Source of the DNA: Myxococcales bacterium
GTDB lineage: Bacteria > Myxococcota_A > Polyangia > Polyangiales > Polyangiaceae
NCBI GenBank assembly: GCA_025351875.1
Contig: JANXVA010000802.1
Span: 1 to 38,736 of the forward strand
DNA length: 38,736 nt
Direction of reading: 5' to 3'
In this document: piece by piece, positions 6,639 through 9,613 of the stretch
Layout of the letters: every line of letters starts with the position of its first letter
Position numbering within the stretch: the first letter of the stretch is position 1
The notes under the pieces: generated by a model
What the model saw: the letters and a program-made list of their open reading frames with translations, nothing else
What the model was told of the DNA's origin: nothing
Databases searched by the model: none
Translations under genes and position numbers: made by a program

Positions 6639-6914
6639 CTAGCCGGCGCCGGTCGCGGGCTGCGCGAGCTTGGCATCGAGCTCTCCGGCGCGGTCGAGGG
6701 CGCGCATCTCGTCGAAGCCGCCGATGCTCTCCTCGTTGATGAAGATCTGCGGGACGGTGCGGAGGCCCGTCGTCTTGACCAGCCACGCGCGCTTCTCGTG
6801 GTCGCCGCTCACGTCGATCTCCTCGTAGGAGACGCCCTTCGCCTTGAGCAGCATCTTGGCGCGGATGCAGTAGGGGCAGATGAGGGTCGTGAACATGCGG
6901 ACTCGGGCGGCCAT
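6639..6914 (-). CDS. grxC: Glutaredoxin 3-type thiol-disulfide oxidoreductase
   Basis: A 91-residue thioredoxin-fold protein with the dithiol active site CPYC (residues 14-17), the cis-proline motif TVPQIFI and the glutathione-binding GGFDEM motif. The length and motif order are those of bacterial glutaredoxin 3. It reduces protein disulfides and mixed glutathione disulfides in the cytoplasm using glutathione. AAGAG lies just upstream of the ATG. It is divergent from the ClpB-like chaperone gene over 89 bases, so the two stress-related genes may share a control region; that is inference. The family is certain; the symbol is assigned by family resemblance. Confidence 0.92.
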   Translation of the reverse strand: MAARVRMFTTLICPYCIRAKMLLKAKGVSYEEIDVSGDHEKRAWLVKTTGLRTVPQIFINEESIGGFDEMRALDRAGELDAKLAQPATGAG

Positions 6915-6965: not shown

Positions 6966-7003
6966 AGAAACGGGCTTCGCGGCGTGTTACCTTCGCTGAC
7001 CTC

Positions 7004-9613
7004 ATGGCGGCCGAGCAGACCATTCACCTCGAGCGTTACGCCCCGGATGCAAAGGCACTCGTGGCTGGCGCTCAGTCCCTCGCCGACGAGCGCAAGCACG
7101 TCCAGGTCGAGCCCATCCATTTGCTGGCCCGCGCGCTCGATCGCGACCGCGGCGTGGCGGAGGTCTTCAAGAAGGCGGGCGCCGACCCGGCGGACGTCGT
7201 CGCCGAGGCCGAATCGCAGCTCTCGAAGCTGGCCAAGGCCGGCGCCGGGCTCGCGTACCTGTCCTCCGCCATGCTCGCGCTTCTCGCGCGCGCAGAGAAG
7301 GAGGCCGACAAGGCGGCCGTCGGCGTGGAGCATCTGCTCAATGCGCTCTCGCAGGAGATCCGCGGTCCCGCGGCCGTCGTCCTCCAGGCCTTCGCGCTCG
7401 GCCCCGGGTCGCTCCGTCCGCACATGGCTGCCCTGAAGAGCGTCCCACGTGACGTCCCCGGCACGACCTCGAGCACGGGCGGCAGCACCGTCAACGCGGC
7501 CGACGCGATGTCGCGCTACGTCAACGACCTCACCGCGCGGGCGCGGGACAAGGGCTTCGACCCGGTCATCGGCCGCGACACCGAGGTCCGCCGCCTCCTC
7601 CAGATCCTCGAGCGCCGTCAGAAGAACCACCCGCTCCTCGTCGGCGAGCCCGGCACCGGCAAGACCGCCATCGTCGGGGCGCTCGCCATGCGCATCGCCG
7701 CAGGCGACGTCCCGCATAACCTCGCGAACCTCTCGATCCTCGAGCTCGAGATCGGCCAGCTCGTCGCGGGCGCCAAGCTCCGCGGGGAGATCGAGGACCG
7801 CCTCAAGCAGGTCATCTCACAGATCAAGTCGCAGGACACGCTGCTCTACATCTCCTCGCTCGAGTCGTTGCTCGGGACGGGCGGCGCCGGCAGCGGCGTC
7901 GGCGATCTCCTGAAGCCGATGCTGGCGCGCGGCGACATCCGCCTGCTCGCCTCGACGACGCCGGAAGGCGTTCGCAAGCTCTCGGACAAGGATCCGAACC
8001 TGCTGCGCCGCTTCACGGTGCTCACGATCGATCCGCCGACGCCCGAGCGCGCGATCGAGATCCTCCGCGGCATCGCCACGAGGTACGAGCAGCACCACAA
8101 CGTGCAGATCGGCGATCCGGCCTGCGTTGCCTCGGTGCGCCTCGCCAAGCGCTACGTGCAGGATCGCGCGCTCCCCGACAGCGCGATCGATCTCCTCGAC
8201 GAGGCCTGCGCGCGCAAGCGCGTCGAGATCGACGGCCTGCCCGCGCACATGGATGACGCCATCCGGCGCGTCGCGTCGCTGAAGGCGCAGCTCTCGGGCC
8301 TCCTCGACGACGTCGACGCGATGAGCATGAAGACGAAGCAGCGCATCGAGAAGGAGATCGCCGAGCTCGAGCCCTCCGTGATCGAGATGCGCTCGAAGCT
8401 CGATTCACGCCGTGGCGCGCTCGCGGCGCAGGCCGCGATCAAGGACGAGCTCTCGAAGCTCAGCGCGCAGCTCGAAGCGGCCCGCAAGGAGCAGAACTTT
8501 GCGAAGCTCGGCGAGCTCGAGCACGTGCAGATCCCCGAGGTGAAGCGCCGTCTCGACGCCGCGGATGCGGCGGTCGAGAAGGCGGGCCTCAAGGACGGCG
8601 TGTCGCGCATCGTCACCGAGGAGGCCGTCGCGCCGGTCCTCGGCGACTGGACCGGCATTCCCGTCTCCCGGATGCTCGAGGCCGAGAGCGAGAAGCTCCT
8701 CAAGATGGAGGAGCGCCTCTCGGCGCGCGTCGTCGGCCAGAGCGAGGCCGTTCGCGCGGTCTCGAAGGCCGTACGCCGCGGGCGCGTCGGCCTGCGCGAT
8801 CCGGGCAAGCCCATCGGAAGCTTCCTCTATCTCGGCCCCTCCGGCGTCGGGAAGACCGAGCTCGCGAAGGCGCTGGCCGAGTTCCTCTTCGACGACGAAC
8901 AGTCCATGACCCGCATCGACATGAGCGAGTTCATGGAGAAGCACATGGCGCAGCGCCTCGTCGGTGCACCGCCGGGGTACGTCGACAGCGAGGAGGGCGG
9001 CTTCCTCACCGAGGCGGTTCGTCGTCGTCCGTACAGCGTTCTCCTCTTCGACGAGGTCGAGAAGGCCCACGCCGACGTCTTCAACCTGCTCCTCCAGGTT
9101 CTCGACGACGGCCGCCTCACCGACGGCCGCGGTCGCACCGCGGATTTTTCGAACACCGTCGTCATCATGACGAGCAACATCGGCTCGCAGCGCATCCTCG
9201 AGACGGATGCGAAGCTCTTCGAGTCCGAGGAGGGCCGCGACGCGCTCCGCGACGTGCTCCGCGAGGAGCTGAAGAACTTCCTCCGCCCCGAGTTCTTGAA
9301 CCGCATCGACGACGTCATCATCTTCCGCCCGCTCTCGAAGCCGGATCTCCGCGGCATCGTCGACATCCAGCTTCGTCGCCTCGAGAAGCTCGTCGCCGAT
9401 CGCGAGCTGAAGCTCGAGCTCACCGAAGCGGCGAAGATGCGCCTCGTCGACATCGGCTACGAGCCCGCGTTCGGCGCGCGGCCGCTGAAGCGCGCCATCC
9501 TCAAGGCGGTCCAGGATCCGCTCGCCGAGGAGCTCCTCTCCGGCGGCTATCCGAACGGCTCCACCGTGCGTGTCGACGTCGAGGGCGAAGGCTTCAAGTT
9601 CGTGAAGGCCTGA
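7004..9613 (+). CDS. ClpB-type AAA+ disaggregase paralogue with degenerate first ATPase ring
   Basis: An 869-residue Hsp100 protein in ClpB order: Clp N-domain (about 10-140), first AAA+ domain (about 170-400), middle coiled-coil domain (about 420-530, with the ClpB wording NFAKLGELEHVQIPE) and second AAA+ domain (about 570-869). ClpB hexamers thread aggregated proteins through a central pore. Ring 2 looks complete: Walker A GPSGVGKT (611-618), Walker B LLFDEVE, pore loop GAPPGYV, sensor 1 TSNIGS and sensor 2 GARPLKR. Ring 1 keeps Walker A (GEPGTGKT, 214-221) and the RR of the arginine finger. Its Walker B is LYISSLE instead of the usual FIDELH, so both acidic residues (284-285) are Ser, and its pore loop is KLRGE rather than KYRGE. 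ATP binding without hydrolysis in ring 1 is the inference. It is likely a specialised paralogue; the main ClpB would be elsewhere. Confidence 0.9.
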   Translation: MAAEQTIHLERYAPDAKALVAGAQSLADERKHVQVEPIHLLARALDRDRGVAEVFKKAGADPADVVAEAESQLSKLAKAGAGLAYLSSAMLALLARAEKEADKAAVGVEHLLNALSQEIRGPAAVVLQAFALGPGSLRPHMAALKSVPRDVPGTTSSTGGSTVNAADAMSRYVNDLTARARDKGFDPVIGRDTEVRRLLQILERRQKNHPLLVGEPGTGKTAIVGALAMRIAAGDVPHNLANLSILELEIGQLVAGAKLRGEIEDRLKQVISQIKSQDTLLYISSLESLLGTGGAGSGVGDLLKPMLARGDIRLLASTTPEGVRKLSDKDPNLLRRFTVLTIDPPTPERAIEILRGIATRYEQHHNVQIGDPACVASVRLAKRYVQDRALPDSAIDLLDEACARKRVEIDGLPAHMDDAIRRVASLKAQLSGLLDDVDAMSMKTKQRIEKEIAELEPSVIEMRSKLDSRRGALAAQAAIKDELSKLSAQLEAARKEQNFAKLGELEHVQIPEVKRRLDAADAAVEKAGLKDGVSRIVTEEAVAPVLGDWTGIPVSRMLEAESEKLLKMEERLSARVVGQSEAVRAVSKAVRRGRVGLRDPGKPIGSFLYLGPSGVGKTELAKALAEFLFDDEQSMTRIDMSEFMEKHMAQRLVGAPPGYVDSEEGGFLTEAVRRRPYSVLLFDEVEKAHADVFNLLLQVLDDGRLTDGRGRTADFSNTVVIMTSNIGSQRILETDAKLFESEEGRDALRDVLREELKNFLRPEFLNRIDDVIIFRPLSKPDLRGIVDIQLRRLEKLVADRELKLELTEAAKMRLVDIGYEPAFGARPLKRAILKAVQDPLAEELLSGGYPNGSTVRVDVEGEGFKFVKA

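Follow-up and report, generated by a model that had tools for sequence, protein, structure and literature searches.

Locus and gene product

The window, that is, the whole stretch of 38,736 nucleotides that was analysed (contig JANXVA010000802.1 of a Myxococcales bacterium), carries a ClpB paralogue on its forward strand, preceded by a glutaredoxin gene on the opposite strand. The features discussed below are as follows, all domain boundaries of the protein being approximate.

6639..6914, minus strand: glutaredoxin gene, the upstream neighbour, usually divergent (35 of 43 loci within the window's family; an association only)
6984..6993, plus strand: GTGTTACCTT, an extended -10-like box just 5' of the start, seen by eye
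7004..9613, plus strand: coding sequence of the ClpB paralogue, 869 aa (stop-free reading-frame translation; domain profiles)
7004..7447, plus strand: N-domain, aa 1-148 (Pfam Clp_N at aa 23-73 and alignment)
7511..8227, plus strand: ring 1 (D1), aa 170-408, catalytically degenerate (alignment)
7643..7666, plus strand: ring-1 Walker A GEPGTGKT, aa 214-221, canonical in this copy
7772..7789, plus strand: ring-1 pore loop AKLRGE, aa 257-262, with L259 in place of Tyr/Phe
7844..7864, plus strand: ring-1 Walker B LYISSLE, aa 281-287, with S284-S285 at 7853-7858
8006..8011, plus strand: ring-1 arginine pair R335, R336 (LLRRF)
8228..8599, plus strand: M-domain coiled coil, aa 409-532
8645..9610, plus strand: ring 2 (D2), aa 548-869, catalytic motifs intact (domain profiles and alignment)
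8834..8857, plus strand: ring-2 Walker A GPSGVGKT
8963..8989, plus strand: ring-2 pore loop GAPPGYVDS, the clade signature, in which D661-S662 replace the canonical G-Y
9050..9055, plus strand: ring-2 Walker B D683-E684
9302..9304, plus strand: ring-2 arginine finger R767

The N-domain/D1/M-domain/D2 architecture of ClpB is present in the protein, in which the Pfam domains Clp_N, AAA, AAA_lid_9, AAA_2 and ClpB_D2-small were identified; AAA_2, AAA_lid_9 and ClpB_D2-small exceed their Pfam gathering cut-offs and place it in the Clp/Hsp100 superfamily. The best NCBIfam match was the ClpB model TIGR03346, at 947.2 bits against a cut-off of 1232.1. The type VI secretion protein ClpV/TssH shares the Hsp100 double ring, but this identity was ruled out by a score of 681 bits, below the TIGR03345 cut-off of 885. 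An AlphaFold (AF2) model (pLDDT 80.7, pTM 0.50), with Foldseek matches to ClpB, Hsp104 and ClpC chains, confirms the predicted fold only and is silent on catalysis.

The -10-like box lies very near the start codon, a spacing that would point to a transcript with little or no leader; related boxes (GTGATAGCTT, GTGGTACGTT and similar) occur in many relatives. Glutaredoxin is the most conserved neighbour of the paralogue within the window's family, and none was found next to it in the other families whose loci were inspected. As divergent neighbours may merely share a promoter region, the glutaredoxin link is regarded as a lead only.

Distribution beside canonical clpB

Within the window's GTDB family, most of 60 genomes carry an orthologue beside canonical ClpB, and an order-level search added orthologues in families f2, f4, f41, f42, f44, f46 and f48. 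Over both searches they share 52-92% identity with the window protein, against 43-48% for the canonical ClpB copies, and most carrier genomes also hold canonical clpB. The original prediction had raised the question of a second, canonical clpB in the window's own genome, and this gene is present, split over two contig ends: its N-terminus lies at the end of contig C573 (78% to the canonical ClpB of the genus) and its C-terminus at the end of C93 (82%), with the middle part missing between them. These two pieces rule out a genome lacking canonical clpB. A profile search of genome contigs with the paralogue alignment gave, among the matches listed (at least 80 loci), identities of no more than 50%, and those that were read were canonical ClpBs.

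When the ring-2 GYxDS loop was searched for as a DNA pattern, 58 of the 72 order genomes gave a match, versus 3 of 307 others, all counts covering genomes within one phylum; phylum and order are presumed to be Myxococcota and Polyangiales. One of the three matches outside the order is a Clp protein (genome G344), and two were taken as unrelated: the candidates in G383 and G478 (same class; GAPTGYRDT) were rejected as paralogues, the G478 locus (L255) having no tblastn match to the window protein and that of G383, identical in its matched letters, being judged from it. Genomes of the order without a match were smaller (median 3.7 Mb versus 7.45 Mb; Mann-Whitney p = 6e-7, uncorrected for relatedness), and many of the compared genomes are fragmented metagenome assemblies.

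Two further Hsp100 genes were observed in the window's genome. One (L002, G000:C604, 2-1927, plus strand) is a fragment of type VI secretion ClpV/TssH scoring above its NCBIfam cut-off. The other (L003, G000:C772, 10-2574, plus strand) encodes one more divergent Hsp100, about 854 aa long, which stays under the cut-offs of all listed NCBIfam Clp models, with GLSRCF in ring 1, where the second arginine finger is Cys, and the pore loop GVRGS.

Residues and selection in the two rings

Translation confirmed that the Walker B acids of ring 1 are replaced by serines in the window copy (codons TCC TCG), that the ring-1 pore-loop Tyr is Leu, and that Walker A and the arginine fingers of ring 1 are kept, as originally predicted. 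The same positions were compared in 98 full-length paralogues (the window protein and 97 from other genomes) and 31 canonical ClpBs. The DE pair is found in 4 of the 98 paralogues and missing from the other 94, and a pore aromatic, Tyr or Phe, in none (Leu in 97, Val in 1), whereas canonical ClpBs have the former in 31/31 and the latter in 30/31; all ring-1 catalytic residues are kept in 31/31 canonical copies. The loss of DE in 94/98 paralogues, against its retention in every canonical ClpB, excludes chance or error, and the serine pair is genuine. Walker A Lys is kept in 88 paralogues and is Arg in the other 10, Walker A Thr/Ser is kept in 64 and lost in 34, and the arginine fingers R335 and R336 are kept in 93 and 66, respectively. 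The Walker B Asp, which binds Mg, was lost as often as the Glu. Three of the four DE-keeping members are f4 proteins, which lost Walker A Thr and the second arginine finger instead, and the fourth (L032) retains every catalytic motif of ring 1, though not the pore loop; DE has therefore not been lost throughout the clade.

The identity of the replacement is not conserved either. In the ring-1 alignment the closest relatives of the window protein read IASLE, ISGLE, ISSLE, ISALE and IAALE, with AS, SG, SS, SA and AA at the DE positions, and the replacements vary by lineage (SS, AS, AA, NG, PD, RG, ED). Canonical DE in close relatives, or a substitution confined to this assembly, had been named as signs of recent decay or error, and neither was found.

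Ring 2 presents the opposite picture with respect to catalysis, since K617, T618, D683, E684, N725, R767 and R826 are each present in 98/98 paralogues. The statement that every ring-2 motif is kept holds for Walker A, Walker B (FDE), sensor 1, the arginine finger and sensor 2, but not for the pore loop, where the canonical GYVGY has become GYVDS; G661D is found in 98/98 and Y662S in 97/98 paralogues. Both pore loops have been rewritten, from KYRGE to KLRGE in ring 1 and from GYVGY to GYxDS in ring 2. Judged by the features that define ClpB, the window protein has the Walker B DE in ring 2 but SS in ring 1, it carries KLRGE and GYVDS in place of a ring-1 pore aromatic and ring-2 GYVG, and its ring 2 is predicted from its residues to be catalytic.

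When substitutions were mapped on the tree, the two ring-1 Walker B columns underwent at least 28 and at least 30 changes. The Walker A Thr column underwent 31, and the same columns show 0 changes in canonical ClpB. The pore-loop Leu column of ring 1 changed once and the ring-2 catalytic residues not at all over the 98 members. The many changes in the catalytic columns of ring 1 and the single change in its pore-loop column indicate that the active site drifts while the pore loop is fixed.

Selection was estimated from within-genus pairwise Nei-Gojobori dN/dS, for which only six canonical pairs were available; in most domains, 1-2 of these pairs were saturated. By this measure D1 reached 0.119 in the paralogue versus 0.037 in canonical ClpB, and D2 0.071 versus 0.076; around the ring-1 active site the values were 0.175 and 0.027, and in the M-domain 0.200 and 0.089. 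Changes per column relative to canonical ClpB were 6.4-fold in D1 and 2.2-fold in D2 and the N-domain. Ring 1 is relaxed yet clearly constrained, and the constraint on ring 2 equals that of ClpB. The relaxation of ring 1 is what a pseudogene in early decay or an assembly error could explain, but the intact frame, the order-wide distribution, the strong purifying selection on all domains and the conserved clade-specific residues make this reading extremely improbable; order-wide conservation and dN/dS rule out a sequencing error or recent decay. The original view of a natural Hsp100 variant with one ring predicted to be catalytically dead, rather than simple decay, is borne out by the same data and by the coexistence of canonical clpB.

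The original prediction went further in proposing a natural ATP trap. In one form of this idea ring 1 would stay permanently bound to ATP and so lock substrate or activate ring 2, like engineered Walker B mutants. The window copy keeps its Walker A and its two arginine fingers, and Walker A Lys and R335 are frequently retained in the clade, which would suit such a trap; in mixtures with wild-type E. coli ClpB, double Walker B mutant subunits raise the ATP hydrolysis of neighbouring active subunits (PMC6593972). However, a selected trap would be expected to retain Walker A as well as the Walker B Asp and to settle on one substitution, and the opposite is seen: the Asp goes as often as the Glu, some lineages also lost Walker A Lys or Thr or an arginine finger, and the losses of Walker A Thr/Ser and of the second finger (32 of 98 members) indicate that nucleotide locking is not a conserved property. 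The trap is thus unsupported at the level of the clade, and we consider it unlikely. The difference in Walker B substitutions from lineage to lineage points to a ring-1 active site that drifted after hydrolysis was lost, as far as residue patterns can tell, rather than to a conserved trap.

A holdase, that is, a substrate-binding ClpB that has lost threading, would agree with the drifting ring-1 active site and with two pore loops unlike the canonical ones. Such a protein would not need its ring-2 catalytic residues, yet these are invariant over 98 members while D1 drifts, which makes a holdase very unlikely.

Ancestry and proposed mechanism

The paralogue clade is monophyletic and stands apart from canonical ClpB with a support of 100 (SH-aLRT, quick search), both with and without outgroups from beyond the phylum, and it is ancient. 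Its sister group (support 99) consists of second ClpBs of family f15 and of one f36 genome (L274-L278, L280). Like the paralogue, these proteins carry Leu in the ring-1 pore loop (SLRGQ or RLRGM); unlike it, they have an intact ring-1 Walker B, with Walker A and the arginine fingers intact in most, and their ring-2 loop is GYVGS or GYVGF, not GYxDS. Since the sister clade has the ring-1 Leu but keeps the ring-1 motifs, the change of the pore-loop Tyr to Leu probably came before the loss of ring-1 hydrolysis. The likely sequence would be a duplication, then the Tyr-to-Leu change in pore loop 1, then the loss of ring-1 hydrolysis and finally the drift of the ring-1 active site, along branches that are long.

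The M-domain is the DnaK-binding site of ClpB, and Y503D in this domain makes E. coli ClpB hyperactive (PMC4023160). The residue aligned with E. coli Y503 is H507 in the window protein, and His is found there in 63 of 98 paralogues and also in 2 of 31 canonical copies. Retention of the M-domain had been taken as an argument against decay; the protein is indeed not decaying, but retention is not universal, as only 5 of about 124 residues remain in the paralogues of genus g49 (f2; L283-L285). Among the proteins read, the M-domain is missing only in this genus and in the doubtful G344 protein (L286, G344:C285; same class, outside the order), which combines a GYKDS ring-2 loop with a degenerate ring 1 and whose placement is unsure because its branch is very long (3.68). 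The g49 paralogues show a ClpA-like layout inside a ClpB-derived clade.

The company of canonical clpB also bears on the idea, contained in the original prediction, that the paralogue is a regulatory partner, tuning canonical ClpB by co-assembling with it in mixed hexamers. The two genes occur together in most carriers, and mixed ClpB hexamers do respond to catalytically dead subunits (PMC6593972), but identity to the canonical copies is only about 43-48%, a constraint of its own acts on ring 2 and on the two pore loops, and the loss of the M-domain makes co-assembly less likely in g49; such a partnership appears quite unlikely.

Our preferred reading, to which we assign a probability of roughly 0.7, is that the protein is a ClpB-derived two-ring Hsp100 paralogue, probably an unfoldase, in which ATP hydrolysis and substrate pulling would be carried out by ring 2 only, ring 1 being structural or gating. 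The two-ring fold would be kept and ATP hydrolysed by ring 2 only, and we therefore propose that ring 2 alone pulls the substrate. Ring 1 may serve as a scaffold or gate, in the window copy perhaps still binding nucleotide through Walker A and the arginine pair but not hydrolysing it, and its conserved Leu pore loop would still line the channel. We infer that ring-1 turnover is absent, that ring 2 threads, that dependence on DnaK is reduced or nil, and that the substrate set differs from that of canonical ClpB.

Several known systems can be compared with this reading. Canonical ClpB (TIGR03346; E. coli; T. thermophilus 1qvr) shares 42-48% identity, the N-D1-M-D2 order, with the M-domain in most paralogues, and the ring-2 catalytic set, whereas the paralogue lost the ring-1 Walker B and pore Tyr, has GYxDS for GYVGY, and coexists with canonical clpB. 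The E. coli protein is driven mainly by AAA2. Mutating the Walker B or the arginine finger of AAA1 costs it much of its activity, which derepression partly restores, and the pore-loop 1 mutant Y251A is almost wild-type once derepressed (PMC6593972). A328V, inferred to lack AAA1 turnover, raises the AAA2 ATPase (PMC5319980). Two of these engineered changes, E279A and Y251A, affect the residues altered in the paralogue, the ring-1 Walker B Glu and pore-loop Tyr (PMC6593972); they are laboratory mutants of a disaggregase, whereas in the paralogue evolution combined such changes with an altered pore loop 2. Pex1/Pex6 (type II AAA+) is alike in principle, having an ATP-binding, hydrolysis-dead D1 over an active D2, an arrangement shown to be capable of substrate threading (PMC10518020). 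This eukaryotic heterohexamer belongs to another AAA+ clade with other N-domains, so that the match is one of motif pattern and not a family relation. By analogy, threading by ring 2 with ring 1 as a scaffold or gate seems most likely.

Three points count against this ring-2-driven reading. The four members that retain DE show that its loss is not universal. In wild-type E. coli ClpB, disaggregation falls strongly when AAA1 carries E279A (PMC6593972), so that the paralogue, if its ring 1 is dead, might disaggregate only weakly. Finally, most members retain the M-domain, and control by DnaK may therefore persist. An extended version of the proposal, namely an order-wide, DnaK-independent, ClpB-derived unfoldase for a dedicated substrate, with ring 1 as a non-hydrolysing gate, the GYxDS ring 2 doing all the threading and possibly a redox link through the adjacent glutaredoxin, is put forward only tentatively. 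No report of a bacterial Hsp100 with a dead ring 1, or of a myxobacterial ClpB paralogue, was found in the limited open-access part of the literature that was searched.

The purpose of the two ATPase rings in Hsp100 proteins is usually probed by point mutants. The clade described here constitutes a natural experiment on the role of ring 1, since ring-1 catalysis, as judged from the sequences, has been dismantled order-wide while ring 2 was kept. Furthermore, as the sister clade went no further than the pore-loop change and one genus additionally lost the M-domain, it offers a graded natural series in which the contributions of ring 1 and of the M-domain may be tested.
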